DNA from: Bacteroidota bacterium
Lineage (GTDB): Bacteria > Bacteroidota > Bacteroidia > B-17B0 > Aurantibacillaceae
DNA length: 64,000 nt
Direction of reading: 5' to 3'
NCBI GenBank assembly: GCA_030684395.1
Contig: JAUXTT010000017.1
Location: 248,001-312,000 of the forward strand
Positions 51,542-58,975 of the stretch are shown piece after piece (the stretch's first letter is position 1; the number at the start of each line of letters is the position of its first letter). Position numbers and translations under genes: made by a program. Below the pieces are notes generated by a model. It was not told the DNA's origin. It was given only the letters and a program-made list of their open reading frames with translations, and ran no database searches.

Positions 51542-52732
51542 TTATAATGTCTTATAGAACGCAATTAACTCTGCTATGAGTTTGGTATTATCAAATTTCT
51601 CCTCAATAAATTTTCGGGCATTATGAGAAATTTTTTCTTTGAGCTCTTTGTTGTTTATCAATAGTTTTATAGCATCAGCAAATTCCTTTGGAGAGTCCGC
51701 AATTAAAATATTTTCTCCATGCTTTACCTGAATTCCTTCTGCACCAATACTCGTAGAAATTATTACTTTCCCAAGCGCTAACCCTTCTACAATTTTTATG
51801 CGCATCCCACTACCCGATTGCAGGGGAACTATCATTACTTCATGTTGGTTATAAAAATCAATGTTATTATCAATGGCTCCCTGAACTTCTAAATTACCTT
51901 CCGCAAACTCAATGTACTTATCGGGCATAAAACGTCCTGCCAATTTAAATTCTACTTTTTCGTTTTTCAAATAGGGCCCCCACACTTCATCTAAAAACCA
52001 ATCCACCGCTTCTATATTTGGCATCCAATCCATAGAGGCTAAATGAAAAAAAGTGTTTGAACGAATATTGCTTTTATCAACCTTATATCGGTTCAATAAA
52101 ATTCCTGTTGGCGAAACACAATACTTTTTTTTAAGTCCCAATCCTTTCATGAGATGCATATCATAAGAAGTGATAGGAACGATACCATCAACCTGATCAA
52201 GTATTGCCAGCTCTAATTTTTTCAGCCTTTTATTTTGCAAGCTTAAATACCACTTTTTTAAAGTACTCTTTTCGTTTTTTATCAAACGATCCCAAATAAG
52301 ATGTTCTACATTGTGAGCGCGAAGTGTAATCTTTGCTTTGCTGTGTTTTTTTATCAGACTCATATAAGGCGCCATAAACAAGCCTTCTATATGAATAATG
52401 TCAAATGCATTTTCCTGTAATTTTTTTATGACCGCTTCTTCAAACTCTTTGAAAAGAAAACGTGAAACAAAAAAAGATTGAGAACTGAATAAATTAAGTA
52501 ATGCTCCTATCGGCTTTACATCAGTATCGCGGTACACTGAAACATAATTGCTTTGTTTCTTAAATTCTTCCGGAACCAGTTCATCATCTTTGAAATGCTT
52601 TTTTGTGTTAACCGTAAGTAAATGCAACTCTACTCCATTATCAATAAACCCTTTTGCCATATTATAAACAGCAATTGAACTTCCATCATTTGGAGGATAG
52701 GGTGCTTTGTTGCTTATCTGTAAAATATGCAT
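51542..52732 (-). CDS. Glycosyltransferase family 4-like protein
   Basis: A 396-residue GT-B fold enzyme. I use the ATG at 52732 (MHILQISNKAPYPPNDG) rather than the TTG nine bases upstream. The N-terminal half has the acceptor-side strand and loop; the C-terminal half has the donor-binding part: FFHLASMDWMPNIEAVDWF, FKLAGRFMP, VMIVPLQSGSGMRIKIVEGLALGK and ISTSIGAEGI, matching family 4 (PF13692-type). It probably adds a sugar to LPS, capsule or a glycoprotein. The first 25 codons are closely related to a fragment at 57389-57535. It shares a bidirectional terminator with ahcY. Confidence 0.9.
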   Translation of the reverse strand: MHILQISNKAPYPPNDGSSIAVYNMAKGFIDNGVELHLLTVNTKKHFKDDELVPEEFKKQSNYVSVYRDTDVKPIGALLNLFSSQSFFVSRFLFKEFEEAVIKKLQENAFDIIHIEGLFMAPYMSLIKKHSKAKITLRAHNVEHLIWDRLIKNEKSTLKKWYLSLQNKRLKKLELAILDQVDGIVPITSYDMHLMKGLGLKKKYCVSPTGILLNRYKVDKSNIRSNTFFHLASMDWMPNIEAVDWFLDEVWGPYLKNEKVEFKLAGRFMPDKYIEFAEGNLEVQGAIDNNIDFYNQHEVMIVPLQSGSGMRIKIVEGLALGKVIISTSIGAEGIQVKHGENILIADSPKEFADAIKLLINNKELKEKISHNARKFIEEKFDNTKLIAELIAFYKTL

Positions 52733-52849
52733 TGAGGTCAAAAGTAAGAAGTAAAAAGGAGAAAGCCAATCGAAGTCTTCCTTTCGGGCAAGAACTTTTC
52801 AATGCAATAATCCGATTCACTTGTAGATATGACAAAATCTTAAAGCAAA

Positions 52850-52880
52850 AATTCCCCGAAGCTATAAACAACGGGGAATT
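52850..52880 (-). terminator. Terminator after the 535-aa T9SS protein
   Basis: A 9-base perfect stem (AATTCCCCG/CGGGGAATT) with a 13-base loop and a T run on the minus strand, 23 bases after the stop codon. Confidence 0.7.
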
Positions 52881-52903: not shown

Positions 52904-54511
52904 TTAATAGTTACCCAAAATAATCACTTTTTGAACGTTAACCTCATTCCCATTAACAATTCTCAAAGTATACGTTCCATCGGACTGGCCTTGTAAATCG
53001 ATTGTTTCGGTTACTGAAGTTGCATTTTGCTTCTTCACCAATCGTCCTGTCATATCGTATACTTCCATAAACATGTTATTTGAATTATTAAATTCGTTTA
53101 GCTGAACCGTAAAAATTCCTTTATTAGGGTTTGGAAATACCACCAGGTTTTCCCTGCTTCCCATGTCAAAAGTTCCTAATTTGGCCGGGCTAACTTCTTC
53201 GTTACCTCTTATTTCCTTCTGTAACATTCTCTGTACAATATCGTAATGAATTCCTATAGTTAAACTTTTCACTTCATTACATGGACTTTTGCTGATGTTA
53301 TGTTTTAATAAATAATACCCTTCCAATGCCAAGGTAGTCGTAAAGCTTGATGTAATGTAAGTAGCAATTAATGTTCCCTGATTGAAATTCGCATCAGAAT
53401 TGTAAAGATACCATACGTGATTGCCTGACACAGAAGAAGAAGGAGAAATTGTTAAGGTACCAGCGCTTGTGTTTGCAATGTCACTCGTAACAAAGCCAGC
53501 ATCCATGTTAGCCGCAGCACTTGGGTCTGATACTACGTTTGCCGTCAGCGAAGTAATACAACCGGTGAAATTATCGGTTACCAATACATGATATGAACCA
53601 AATCCATATGCACTTGTATTAAGATTAGATGTAGTAACAGGTAAAACTGTATACATTCCATTAACTGGAGCATACGACCATTGGTAGCTGAACGATCCTG
53701 TTCCGGCATAAGCATTTAAATTTGGGAAAACAGCTCCTGTACAAAGTGAATAGTGGTTTGTCCACCCTTTAACTTTTGGGTTTGGTAATATAGTTATGTT
53801 TACATTATCAGACTTGGTACAAGTCAAAGTTTGAGTCATAGATGTGCTCGCAGTATTGTAAACTACACTGCCAGTAAGTGTATAAGTTGAATTTGCAGTT
53901 GGTGTTACCACTACTGATGACTGTGTGCCTCCACCAGGATTCCATGAATAAGTTGAAGCACCAGAGCCAGTTAGTTGAACAGAACCTCCCTGACAAACAG
54001 ATTGATCTGCACCGGCATTTACATTAGGAAGAGGTCTCGTATATAAGTAATTCGAACGCTGTCTGATACCGGTTGCTACGTCCGAACCAACGTAATAAAT
54101 ACGGATGTTTAGCCCCTGCGAATAATTAAATGAAGCGCCCAAAGCTCCTGGTGCCGGCAGTTGAACTGCATACACACCGTTATATGGCCAATTTGCTGCA
54201 GGAATCGAAGCAATTAAAATACCGTTTGAATTTCCTACCGCATTGTATACTTTATAGGTGCCAGTGAGAGTATTTGGAATAGGCCACGCATTTCCATTGT
54301 TTATTCCGTATATCGACTTGTTTTTGACGTAAACCACTCCACCCATACATACATCATTCCAAGCCCATTCACCAATACTGCCTGACGAATTTGTGAATCC
54401 CCAAACCATTGAGAAACCTACCAGGTCTGCCATAGGGGCAGCAGAGGCCTTTACTGCTTTGGTGCTTACTAAAATCACCAGTAAAAAAAGAGCTAATTTG
54501 ATTTTTTTCAT
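52904..54511 (-). CDS. T9SS type A secreted protein with Ig/PKD-like domains
   Basis: A 535-residue protein with a signal peptide ending near KASA. The N-terminal domain of about 150 residues (MADLVGFSMVWGFTNSSG, WNDVCMGGVVYV) is not recognised. Ig/PKD-like domains follow (NAGADQSVCQGGSVQLTGSG, YSWNPGGGTQSSVVVTP, FSYQWSYAPVNGMYTV). The last 75 residues are a T9SS type A sorting domain (VVFPNPNKGIFTVQLNEF, MTGRLVKKQNA, GTYTLRIVNGNE). A surface or secreted fate is predicted; no enzyme motif is seen. It is a single gene with its own terminator. I found no convincing promoter in the 168 bases upstream. Confidence 0.88.
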   Translation of the reverse strand: MKKIKLALFLLVILVSTKAVKASAAPMADLVGFSMVWGFTNSSGSIGEWAWNDVCMGGVVYVKNKSIYGINNGNAWPIPNTLTGTYKVYNAVGNSNGILIASIPAANWPYNGVYAVQLPAPGALGASFNYSQGLNIRIYYVGSDVATGIRQRSNYLYTRPLPNVNAGADQSVCQGGSVQLTGSGASTYSWNPGGGTQSSVVVTPTANSTYTLTGSVVYNTASTSMTQTLTCTKSDNVNITILPNPKVKGWTNHYSLCTGAVFPNLNAYAGTGSFSYQWSYAPVNGMYTVLPVTTSNLNTSAYGFGSYHVLVTDNFTGCITSLTANVVSDPSAAANMDAGFVTSDIANTSAGTLTISPSSSVSGNHVWYLYNSDANFNQGTLIATYITSSFTTTLALEGYYLLKHNISKSPCNEVKSLTIGIHYDIVQRMLQKEIRGNEEVSPAKLGTFDMGSRENLVVFPNPNKGIFTVQLNEFNNSNNMFMEVYDMTGRLVKKQNATSVTETIDLQGQSDGTYTLRIVNGNEVNVQKVIILGNY

Positions 54512-54679: not shown

Positions 54680-55426
54680 TTAAAGACCGGTAAGCAAATC
54701 TACTACCAGATCCCTTTTTCTTGTCGCCACAGGGACTTTTGAACCATCTTTCATTACTACCATATTATCCAGTTTTTCGTAGCAAAATAAATAGTTCGTG
54801 TTTACAAGATGGGATTGGTGAATTCTTATAAACCCGTGTCCTGCTAACATCTCATCAAATTCCTTAATAAGTCTGGAAACCATTATTACTTTACCATCCT
54901 TAAGAATAGCTTTAGTGTAACTTCCTTCTGATTCAAAACGCAACACATCTTCTGTGTCTAATGAATATATTCGTTCAACCGTTTTTAACACGATTTTTTG
55001 TTTACCTTTCTGTGATAGAACAAGATTTTCGAGTAAAGCCTTAATCTGAATTCCATGTTGACTCCGGTCATTGATCCGGCTTGCTTTTTTTACAGCACTA
55101 ATCAATAGCTCCATTGATACTGGTTTCAACAAATAATCAACAGCGCTCCAACGGATAGCATCAATTGCGAATTCCTCATGAGCTGTGGTAAATACCACAT
55201 TAAAATCAATTTCAATGAATCGTTTCAAAAGATCAAAGCCGCTACCGTCCTGCATTTCCACGTCCAAAAAAACCAAATCAGGAGATAGCCTTTGGATAAG
55301 TTCCATACCTCCTTCAACAGAAGATGCTTCAGCAACCACTTCAACATCTTCCTTAATTACATTAAGCATCTCTTTCAATAAAATGCGGCAATTTTCCTCA
55401 TCATCAATAATAATACATCTTAGCAT
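54680..55426 (-). CDS. LytTR-family response regulator
   Basis: A 248-residue regulator. The ATG at 55426 starts directly at the receiver domain (MLRCIIIDDEENCRILL); the track extends 17 codons into the kinase gene from a weaker start. Receiver features: acidic pair DD near residue 8, phosphorylation Asp in PDLVFLDVEMQDGSG, Thr in VVFTTAHEEF and Lys in YLLKPVSME. The C-terminal 100 residues are the LytTR DNA-binding domain (DTEDVLRFESEGSYTKAIL, GHGFIRIHQSHLVNTNYL). It is the partner of the kinase that ends 7 bases upstream. Target genes are unknown; no repeated LytTR site was identified. Confidence 0.93.
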   Translation of the reverse strand: MLRCIIIDDEENCRILLKEMLNVIKEDVEVVAEASSVEGGMELIQRLSPDLVFLDVEMQDGSGFDLLKRFIEIDFNVVFTTAHEEFAIDAIRWSAVDYLLKPVSMELLISAVKKASRINDRSQHGIQIKALLENLVLSQKGKQKIVLKTVERIYSLDTEDVLRFESEGSYTKAILKDGKVIMVSRLIKEFDEMLAGHGFIRIHQSHLVNTNYLFCYEKLDNMVVMKDGSKVPVATRKRDLVVDLLTGL

Positions 55427-55433
55427 AATAAAT

Positions 55434-57392
55434 TTAGGTTTCTTTACAAGGGATAACAAATCGAACTTTAACACCACTATTACCTCCGTTCAATTCTGAC
55501 TTATCAACTATTTCAATTTTTCCAATTCCTTCATAACGCTTGCCAAATGCCAACATTCGTTCTCTTGCTATTTTGGTAGCATGAGACACATGTTCTTTCT
55601 TGGTACCTATCTTATAAGCAGCTGCGGTCTTCATCCCTACTCCATTATCCTCAATTTCATATATTAATTCCTTCGAATTAGACCCTTGCAACAACCTTAT
55701 CTCTATTTTTCCTTCACCTTCTTTATAAAACAAACCATGTTCAATTGCATTCTCCACAAAGGGTTGAGCTAGCATAGGAGGGATAAATGTTGCCTCCCTA
55801 ATAATGTCGACATCAATACTAATGGTAGAAATAAATTTATCTTTAAATCGTAATTGCTGCAATATTATGTAGTTCTCTAACAATTTTACCTCCGATTCAA
55901 CAGATATAAAATCCTTTCGCGAATAATTTAATATCATTCTCATAAGATCAGAAAATTTGGAAAGGTAAACTCCTGCCTGAATCGGATCATTCCTATAAAT
56001 GTAACTTTGAATCGCTCCAAGTGAATTAAAAATGAAATGCGGATTCATTTGTGACACTAAAAATTTTTGTTGTATAATATTATTTTTCTGGCTTTCAATG
56101 ACGTTTTTTTGCTTCAAATAATTATACAAAAACATTGAGCCAACAATCAGCAACACAATAAGTGAAATAAAAATTGTATACCAATTATTTCTGGATGCCC
56201 GATCGATTCCGGCTTGGTTTTGCAATTGAATTAATTTGCTTTCGCTTTCTATTTTTGTTTTCAATTCCTTCTTTTCAAACTCGTACTTTAGTTTTTCCCT
56301 ATATGCAGCATCCTTGCTTTCTTCCATCTTAATACTATCATCTGCCTCTTCAAAAATTTTATAATTTTCAAGCGCACGTTTATAATCTCCTGTTTTAAAG
56401 TAAATATCGCTCAATCGTTCTCCGCTATACTTTTTCACAGACAAAACATTGTGCTTTTTCGCCAAAACCATAGCCTCTTCCCCATAAAGAACTGATTTAG
56501 CATTATTATAGAACTGATAATAAATATCACTCAATTCATTTAAACATTTCGACTCATTTACAGGATTTTTCATTTCTCTGCTAATTTTCAGTGCCTCGTT
56601 TTGATAATATATTGCGCTATCAAAATCCTTCGTTTGAGAATACAATATTGATAGGTTTCCATAACATACCGACAGATACAGTTTATTATTTTGCTCACTG
56701 AAGTTACTCATCGCTTTATACATATATGGTAGCGCAAGTTTTTCCTTTTTTTTATTAATATAGACAATCCCAAAGTTAAGATCGTTAACCCCAAGCCCAA
56801 CAGAATCTCCCAGCTCGTTTTTGATTTTCATACTTTTACTTATAAAAAGCAACGCATTATCATAGTCTCTTTGCCACATGTACACGGTAGCAATATTATC
56901 GCAGACAAGGGCGGAATTCTGTTTGGCGTCAAGCAAATCACAGAGTTTTAAACTTTCGAAAAAATAAATCAATGCGTTTTCATCATCATTCTGCTTATTA
57001 CACAAATTTCCTAAATTCATGTAAACACTAGCCATTCCTTTCTTGTTGTTTAATTTTTTCTCAATGGCTAAGCGTTTAAAAAGGTATTCCCTTGCTTTAA
57101 CAAAATCGCCCTTTATTGAAAATGCATTTGATTGCATATTCAGGGCTAATGCAGCATACTTTAAGTTATTGGTGACCATTGCCAACTTGTATTGCTGAGA
57201 AGCCAAATATATAACGCTATCCGGTTGCGACTGCATGTAACCAAACCATATTAAATCATCAATTGCCTTTAACCTGATAGTATCAGGCTTCGAATGATTG
57301 CTCCAAATGCTACGTAAAGAGTCGATATTAATTTGTGCTGTACAGAGAAGAGAAGAGATCGAAAAGAAAAATAAAAGAAGTAGTCTTTTCAT
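55434..57392 (-). CDS. TPR-containing LytS/YehU-type sensor histidine kinase
   Basis: A 652-residue membrane kinase. A signal peptide (ends near CTAQ) is followed by a periplasmic region of about 350 residues made of tetratricopeptide repeats (for example ALIYFFESLKLCDLL, SAIYYQNEALKISREM), a coiled-coil stretch and one transmembrane helix (WYTIFISLIVLLIVGSMFLY). The cytoplasmic part has the His_kinase domain with phospho-acceptor segment QMNPHFIFNSLGAIQSYI and the ATPase boxes FVENAIEHGLF and YEIEDNGVGMK. It pairs with the LytTR regulator downstream. The start codon overlaps the stop of a truncated glycosyltransferase ORF (TTATGA). Confidence 0.93.
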   Translation of the reverse strand: MKRLLLLFFFSISSLLCTAQINIDSLRSIWSNHSKPDTIRLKAIDDLIWFGYMQSQPDSVIYLASQQYKLAMVTNNLKYAALALNMQSNAFSIKGDFVKAREYLFKRLAIEKKLNNKKGMASVYMNLGNLCNKQNDDENALIYFFESLKLCDLLDAKQNSALVCDNIATVYMWQRDYDNALLFISKSMKIKNELGDSVGLGVNDLNFGIVYINKKKEKLALPYMYKAMSNFSEQNNKLYLSVCYGNLSILYSQTKDFDSAIYYQNEALKISREMKNPVNESKCLNELSDIYYQFYNNAKSVLYGEEAMVLAKKHNVLSVKKYSGERLSDIYFKTGDYKRALENYKIFEEADDSIKMEESKDAAYREKLKYEFEKKELKTKIESESKLIQLQNQAGIDRASRNNWYTIFISLIVLLIVGSMFLYNYLKQKNVIESQKNNIIQQKFLVSQMNPHFIFNSLGAIQSYIYRNDPIQAGVYLSKFSDLMRMILNYSRKDFISVESEVKLLENYIILQQLRFKDKFISTISIDVDIIREATFIPPMLAQPFVENAIEHGLFYKEGEGKIEIRLLQGSNSKELIYEIEDNGVGMKTAAAYKIGTKKEHVSHATKIARERMLAFGKRYEGIGKIEIVDKSELNGGNSGVKVRFVIPCKET

Positions 57393-57535
57393 AACATGTT
57401 TTTTACCAATAAAAGCTTACTTAATACATCATATCCAAAGTGAAGGTCAGACCAGTTTGCAACCTTGTAAACGGCTGTGGTACCGCCATCATTTGGAGGA
57501 TAGGGGGCTTTATTACTTATTTGAAGAATCTTCAT
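57389..57535 (-). pseudogene. 5' fragment of a family 4 glycosyltransferase gene
   Basis: A 48-codon ORF missing from the ORF track. Its first 26 residues (beginning MKILQISNKAPYPPNDGG) closely match the start of the intact glycosyltransferase at 52732 (MHILQISNKAPYPPNDGS), with a 20-base identical stretch (57486-57505 and 52683-52702). After AVYKVAN the similarity stops; a short unrelated tail ends at TGA overlapping the kinase ATG. It starts 3 bases after the LptF/G stop codon, where a full downstream gene would be expected. It is most likely a truncated paralogue, with the two-component genes now occupying the place of its remainder. Confidence 0.8.
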
Positions 57536-57538
57536 AAA

Positions 57539-58975
57539 CTAAACTTCTTGCTTTTTAAAACGCTTAAAGAATTTTACAATGGGCTGCACGTAAACACCCA
57601 TATCAAATAAGGCGGAATCCTTCGCTGCTTTATAGGATAACCAAATTCCAAACGGCAAAAACAAGAGCGGACCAACCCACATTGCAAGCGCCGGATCCAT
57701 CTTGCCTTCCAATGCCATTTTTTCACAAGTAATACTGATAACATGGTAGATCAAAAACAAAATCACCGAAATAACAACAGGCATTCCCAAGCCCCCTTTA
57801 CGTACAATAGCTCCAAGCGGAGCGCCGACAAAAAATAAGACAAGGCAAGCAAACGATAAAGTAAATTTTTTATGCCAGTTTACTTCAAATTTGGCTTTGT
57901 CTTTTATGTCATCTTCTTCTTCCGACATTTTTCCCTCCAAAAAAGCCTGCGAGCTCTTTGCAGCATTCCAGGCGTTATCAATCAACTGTATTCTTTCGGC
58001 CTGATTTCTTGATTCTACATATTGCTTAATACTCACATCAAATTTGTTTAATGAATCATTTTTTTTAGAATTGGCAATTGCTTTGGCATTAAAGTACTTC
58101 TCAAAATTCTCTTTTGTGTTTTGTATCCGTTGCTCTCTCTCAACCCTAATGGTATCAATATAATCATCCAACTGAGAAACATTCATCATCTCGGCATTAT
58201 TCCTAAATAACTCTTCATCTGTGCGTTTCATTTGAAAGCCACTAAGATCAAAGGTTACTATTTGTTTTTGAAAAGAAGCCGAAAGCATAGGCCTGCCTTG
58301 CACGTCACTATTATCATTCAACATTTGCTGATAGCGGTTCCCATTGTACAAGGTCATCACCATTGCATTTTTATCTCCGCTGGTTTGCAGTTTACCTGAG
58401 TCAGCATACATCTGAATGGTATTACCTCTTTTATCCTGATGATCGTAAATAAGAATATTACGAATTGTTTGCCCGTCATTTTCCTTTTTTCCAACCCGGA
58501 TACTGTATCCTTCTATCCCATTATAAAACACAGACTCTTTGATATTAAGTGTTGGCTTTGCTCCTCTCACATCATACAACATGGATGATTGTTTTAGATG
58601 AATATAAGGCATGGTGTAATTACTGAAAGAAAAACAAAACACTGCCAGAAACAAAATGAAGAGTAATATCGGGCGCATAATACGAAGCAAGGACAAGCCA
58701 GACGACTTCATTGCTGCAAGCTCATAATTTTCTCCAAGGTTCCCAAAGGTCATGATAGCCGAAAGCAACACCGCTAAAGGCATGGAGCTTGGAATGAACA
58801 TTAAAAAAGTAAAGGAAAACATTTTTACCAGTGTTATCGAATCAATTCCTTTTCCTGCAATTTCATCGATGTAGGTAAATACAAATACCATAAAAAAAAC
58901 AAACACTGCAATAAACAGTGTACCCAAAAAGGGTGGGATGTACTTTTTAATGAGGTATAAATAGAGGGTTTTCAA
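57539..58975 (-). CDS. LptF/LptG-family permease (YjgP/YjgQ)
   Basis: A 478-residue inner-membrane component of the ABC machine that lifts LPS toward the Lpt bridge. It starts with the family signature LYLYLIKKYIPPFLGTLF and has three N-terminal and three C-terminal helices (LSFACLVLFFVGAPLGAIVRKGGLGMPV is diagnostic) around a periplasmic beta-jellyroll (GYSIRVGKKENDGQTIRN). Bacteroidota commonly encode one protein for both LptF and LptG roles, so I leave the symbol open. A TATTTTTG box is 6 bases before the start codon. A truncated glycosyltransferase ORF follows directly. Confidence 0.92.
   Translation of the reverse strand: MKTLYLYLIKKYIPPFLGTLFIAVFVFFMVFVFTYIDEIAGKGIDSITLVKMFSFTFLMFIPSSMPLAVLLSAIMTFGNLGENYELAAMKSSGLSLLRIMRPILLFILFLAVFCFSFSNYTMPYIHLKQSSMLYDVRGAKPTLNIKESVFYNGIEGYSIRVGKKENDGQTIRNILIYDHQDKRGNTIQMYADSGKLQTSGDKNAMVMTLYNGNRYQQMLNDNSDVQGRPMLSASFQKQIVTFDLSGFQMKRTDEELFRNNAEMMNVSQLDDYIDTIRVEREQRIQNTKENFEKYFNAKAIANSKKNDSLNKFDVSIKQYVESRNQAERIQLIDNAWNAAKSSQAFLEGKMSEEEDDIKDKAKFEVNWHKKFTLSFACLVLFFVGAPLGAIVRKGGLGMPVVISVILFLIYHVISITCEKMALEGKMDPALAMWVGPLLFLPFGIWLSYKAAKDSALFDMGVYVQPIVKFFKRFKKQEV

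Follow-up and report, generated by a model that had tools for sequence, protein, structure and literature searches.

A probable relic of a glycosyltransferase start between an LptF/LptG-family permease and a histidine kinase in a Bacteroidota genome

How did a 48-codon open reading frame (ORF) come to lie between a permease gene and a sensor kinase gene? This question is raised by one locus of the 64,000-nucleotide stretch of Bacteroidota DNA analysed here, which we call the window. The locus lies entirely on the minus strand, where the genes follow one another in the order LptF/LptG permease, stub ORF, TPR histidine kinase, LytTR regulator, T9SS protein and GT4 glycosyltransferase (Table 1). 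The first-pass annotation had described an ORF directly behind the LptF/G gene that starts like the intact glycosyltransferase about 5 kb away and then breaks off, with a stop that overlaps the kinase start. It had offered two accounts of this arrangement, namely an original permease-glycosyltransferase order that was later interrupted, or the trace of a duplication in which kinase, regulator and T9SS gene were placed between two related copies.

Table 1. Features of the locus, with positions in the window.
Feature	Coordinates	Strand	Basis
LptF/LptG-family permease, conserved upstream neighbour	57539..58975	-	
48-codon stub ORF: codons 1-27, glycosyltransferase 5′ stub; rest, unmatched tail	57389..57535	-	
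85-nt copy of the glycosyltransferase 5′ end, 75% identity	57451..57535	-	repeat search
Stub ORF tail, without detectable relative; TGA overlaps kinase ATG	57389..57457	-	
TPR sensor histidine kinase (His_kinase/HATPase), part of intervening block	55434..57392	-	
LytTR response regulator, part of intervening block	54680..55429	-	
Secreted protein with T9SS C-terminal sorting domain, 535 aa, intervening block	52904..54511	-	Por_Secre_tail
Terminator-like hairpin followed by T run, 3′ of T9SS gene	52852..52880	-	fold
Promoter-like TTG-N20-TACTTTTG right before intact glycosyltransferase	52738..52768	-	consensus after PMC7366714
85 nt at intact glycosyltransferase start, counterpart of stub copy	52648..52732	-	repeat search
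Intact GT4 glycosyltransferase, 396 aa	51542..52732	-	Pfam Glyco_trans_1_4 + Glyco_transf_4

The ORF is as had been described. It translates into 48 codons (MKILQISNKAPYPPNDGGTTAVYKVANWSDLHFGYDVLSKLLLVKNML), and its ATG (57535) adjoins the permease gene, the stop TAG of which (57541-57539) is followed by a 3-nt gap reading TTT. At its other end the stub TGA (57391-57389) overlaps the kinase ATG (57392-57390). The annotated kinase start appears credible, because the resulting N-terminus looks signal-peptide-like.

Over codons 1 to 26 the stub agrees with the start of the intact glycosyltransferase (52732), 4.8 kb off, at 59 of 78 nucleotides and 20 of 26 amino acids, and the longest uninterrupted identity is the run of 20 bases noted before. 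For this 78-mer, scored at all 127,846 window positions, the background mean is 20.9 (sd 4.0) and no other place exceeds 40/78. Ungapped extension of the match yields an 85-nt direct repeat with 75% identity (57451-57535 / 52648-52732), which is by far the longest in the 5.2-kb region, the other repeats found by the repeat search being nowhere near it. Genome-wide, the stub matches only one other place, the intact glycosyltransferase. The likeness ends at about codon 27, in agreement with the view that the ORF breaks off after a glycosyltransferase-like start. Within the matching part, the stub reads DGGTTAVYKVA where nearly all permease-linked orthologs have DGSSIA.

The last 21 or so codons of the stub match neither glycosyltransferases nor the other sequences tested; in comparisons with complete glycosyltransferases, with the loci of G001 and of the G003 kinase and with the remainder of the window, this tail scored no better than shuffles. 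The idea that the tail is the C-terminus of a lost glycosyltransferase, brought close by an in-frame internal deletion and hinted at by the pattern HF.Y...LL...K..L, was rejected, with a profile score of 7.9 against 7.6 (sd 1.7) for shuffles (p = 0.34).

Both the permease and the glycosyltransferase were sought in 87 genomes of the family, 69 of which have the two on one contig and strand. In 68 of these 69 a full glycosyltransferase lies directly behind the permease, with no kinase or regulator between them, and starts -1 to 136 nt from the aligned permease end. The sole exception is the window's genome, with 4,810 nt between the two genes. Nothing separates the pair in G001, of the same genus (permease 77%, glycosyltransferase 67%), or in G008. 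The congeners compared were two, G001 and G002, the contig of the latter ending 38 nt before the glycosyltransferase, and the nearest relatives with uninterrupted order and data have 67-77% protein identity. The intact glycosyltransferase of the window is the ortholog of the permease-linked glycosyltransferase of the relatives, present as a single copy and 67-69% identical to those of the congeners. Among the 87 family genomes, no relative carries a stub behind the permease, and all stub matches are the starts of full genes, in long open frames except for one that is cut by a contig edge (G086).

Permease-glycosyltransferase is thus the ancestral gene order of the family. With the pair adjacent in 68 of 69 relatives and the short ORF in no relative, it is strongly supported that the fragment is a relic which marks the ancestral glycosyltransferase start, and that the kinase-regulator-T9SS block interrupted the order later, as the first of the two proposed accounts had it. 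The short ORF conserved in relatives, which according to the first-pass annotation would have made it a real small gene, was not found.

In nine further family genomes the two genes lie on separate contigs or the glycosyltransferase has no match, and these may include some real separations of the pair as well as some contig ends. G003 (L024) and G018 (L025) have the permease without an adjoining glycosyltransferase, the latter being on another contig; in these genomes the pair may have come apart independently, leaving no stub.

We then asked how long the two starts have been apart. The 26 codons hold 19 differences between stub and intact gene, and third positions account for 13 of these (p = 0.002 against one third); pS is 0.64 and pN 0.14. 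A pS of 0.63 was obtained for the same stretch between the genome's own gene and G002, which is like that between own gene and stub. Codons 1 to 17 of the stub are identical at 42/51 positions to the own gene, at 42/51 to G002 and at 41/51 to G001. In codons 18 to 26, residues that almost all orthologs conserve have changed (SSI to GTT, N to K and M to V). The stub has 13 derived changes, the intact copy 6. A stub without constraint from the outset should show fewer silent changes, or more protein changes, than observed. In a neutrality test under a simple two-class model, for which the constraint on the intact copy was taken to be 0.05, such a stub fits worse, both with equal branches (p = 0.003) and with a stub branch of half length (p = 0.017); with a stub branch one quarter of the other copy's, neutrality is not rejected (p = 0.09). 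The selection history of the stub over the 26 codons appears mostly purifying, with codons 18 to 26 relaxed. A recent copying of 85 bp is unlikely, because the silent divergence is at the level between species, the changes are mostly silent, and the promoter-like leader of the intact gene resembles that of a congener. The duplication account consequently stands in part: there are indeed two glycosyltransferase starts, yet their silent sites have diverged too far for the duplication to be recent. On the best reading, the stub spent most of its time as a separate copy within a working gene and was severed from it later, although 26 codons fall short of proof.

Next we examined the regions flanking the two starts. 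The leaders differ and the repeat begins exactly at the ATG. The leader of the intact glycosyltransferase agrees with the G001 leader, at the same distance, at 25 of 42 nt (p = 0.0006; 0.06% of dinucleotide shuffles), a match that is short and T-rich. Both leaders contain TTG-N20-TAnnTTTG ending 6 nt before the ATG, a motif that occurs 15 times in 128,000 window positions and fits the Bacteroidetes primary-sigma consensus (PMC7366714). The hairpin 3′ of the T9SS gene was seen by folding, and a simple terminator scan did not report it. Because of this hairpin with its T run upstream and the promoter-like leader, the intact glycosyltransferase is probably now its own transcription unit. The stub junction presents the normal state of the family, with tight spacing and a permease C-terminus, PIVKFFKRFKK, as in other genera. 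Two tandem copies in the ancestor of the genus would be the simplest account of this normal junction together with the G001-like leader; two full glycosyltransferase copies in tandem were found in no genome. In G001 the permease C-terminus (L004:1423-1500) is itself unlike that of every other relative read (FKFINYLVIPPIVRVLFAKKLKEDIEE), and a leader of some 40 nt comes after it. Neither this odd C-terminus nor the leader gave a significant match when examined as what might be left of a lost copy or of the block.

The intervening block is accessory. It measures 4.66 kb, has a G+C content like that of its surroundings, and contains no integrase or recombinase; only short or weak pairs of terminal inverted repeats were detected, none of them at the block ends. 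In the congener G001 no kinase block is found next to the permease. Among 87 family and 295 class genomes the best relative of the kinase, in G003, has 41% identity, and it is likewise trailed by a LytTR regulator and a T9SS-tailed protein; in this genome, which belongs to another genus, the kinase-LytTR pair (L078:5200-9980) is 41-49% identical to that of the window. For the T9SS secreted protein the other 86 family genomes yielded no relative at E<=1e-15, and the class sample yielded a single one, at 31%. We considered the kinase, regulator and T9SS protein as a mobile module and rejected the idea, since of three loci read only that of G003 has a T9SS-tailed follower, none being seen in the two others, and there is no recombinase.

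Taken together, the probable explanation of the locus is that the start of a glycosyltransferase copy was left as a relic in its ancestral place, that the body of this copy was lost, and that the block lies behind the stub. The stub would represent the first 27 or so glycosyltransferase codons, still at the ancestral spot 3 nt behind the LptG-type permease, and the histidine kinase, LytTR regulator and T9SS protein would have come to sit behind it in the lineage of the window. The intact gene would now be read 4.8 kb downstream, past the terminator-like hairpin, from a promoter-like element of its own, the function of which is predicted. As for the route, we lean, by a narrower measure, towards two glycosyltransferase copies that existed side by side for a time, until the sensor block displaced the body of the permease-coupled one, whose part was taken over by the copy with a leader of its own. 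The first tandem copy would then have been lost differently in the two lineages, in G001 with an altered permease end and in the window's genome with the stub left behind, and the stub itself is probably a relic without function.

The strongest competitor, although rather unlikely, is an insertion with long target duplication, in which the 4.66-kb block entered the glycosyltransferase start and copied about 85 bp in one event, so that an intact gene came to lie at one side and a stub, decaying afterwards, at the other. It would explain why a single 85-nt direct repeat flanks the block and why the stub has more derived changes than the intact copy, and such a pattern is described for restriction-modification genes of H. 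pylori (Nobusato et al. 2000, as reported in PMC1643837 and PMC4978471). However, it has to accommodate silent divergence at the level seen between species, combined with few protein changes, a repeat that starts exactly at the ATG although the leaders before it differ, and an intact copy with a leader like that of G001. The silent divergence and this leader favour an older second copy that lost its body over such an insertion, while the 13 against 6 derived changes would fit decay since a more recent duplication as well.

The arrival of a foreign segment with its own glycosyltransferase start, by site-specific or homologous means, which would make one of the two starts foreign, is improbable. 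Such an origin is suggested by the DGGTTAVYKVA of the stub and by the high silent divergence, but the block has neither a recombination gene nor a deviating G+C content, and the intact start looks more native. Moreover, a search of 395 class genomes for a donor glycosyltransferase with a DGGTTAVYK-like start gave no closer match to the stub than the genome's own gene, and this candidate was rejected. We give slightly less credit still to a real small gene or translational relay, that is, to a 48-codon peptide, or its mere reading, kept for translational coupling of permease and kinase. The 3-nt gap, the ATGA overlap, the lack of a promoter-like TAnnTTTG before the kinase and the mostly silent divergence of codons 1 to 17 speak for it, as does the coupling seen at overlapping stop/start pairs in other organisms (PMC6728339), whereas the ORF occurs in no relative, its codons 18 to 26 are altered at conserved residues and its tail has no relative. 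Finally, a chance likeness of two gene starts would suit a match limited to 26 codons, but against a window maximum of 40/78, and with the stub exactly at the ancestral glycosyltransferase start, its probability is negligible.

Even for a relic, a present role can be imagined. In the 148 nt before the kinase no TAnnTTTG was found, so the kinase may be expressed from the permease transcript, bridged by the stub. Ribosomes leaving the permease could read the stub and end on the kinase start (ATGA); in other organisms, overlapping stop/start pairs were translationally coupled in 13 of 14 tested cases (PMC6728339). That the stub has been kept as such a relay, in a chain of permease stop, stub and kinase start, is very doubtful and would be the only functional idea left for it. 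If true, a newly arrived sensor kinase would be expressed in step with a lipopolysaccharide-export gene.

Among known systems, the locus resembles truncated-pseudogene remnants at operon interruptions, with a 5′ stub in the ancestral place, the intact copy elsewhere and conserved neighbours. The similarity covers part of a gene, relatives have the full-length gene at this position, and the stub is not conserved in them. Unlike such remnants, the stub frame is still open and its stop overlaps the start of the next gene. Some integrative elements, for example SXT in prfC, insert into the beginning of a gene and provide it with a replacement 5′ end. The locus shares with these elements a split 5′ end at one flank and the complete gene at the other, but the block is without a recombinase and the intact start looks native. 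A literature search on partial duplications at insertions turned up nothing. The long target duplication reported for H. pylori restriction-modification genes (Nobusato et al. 2000, as reported in PMC1643837 and PMC4978471) likewise has an accessory block bordered on both sides by a direct repeat containing a portion of a gene. It differs in that the window block has no restriction-modification genes, that the copies here are 25% different, their changes in the first 17 codons being mostly silent, and that no near relative has the empty site at high identity. The locus is an ordinary, clearly readable genome scar and no new kind of system.

The scar indicates that an accessory sensor and secretion block can settle within a strongly conserved pair of envelope genes, and that the displaced glycosyltransferase survives with its own promoter-like element. 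It also illustrates how a comparison of gene order can explain a small unlisted ORF, and advises caution against annotating such stubs as small genes. The permease-GT4 pair suggests an unnamed envelope or lipopolysaccharide function; the intact glycosyltransferase is nearest to TIGR03087, yet far below its cutoff. Adjacency of permease and GT4 glycosyltransferase is also seen in some other families of the class.
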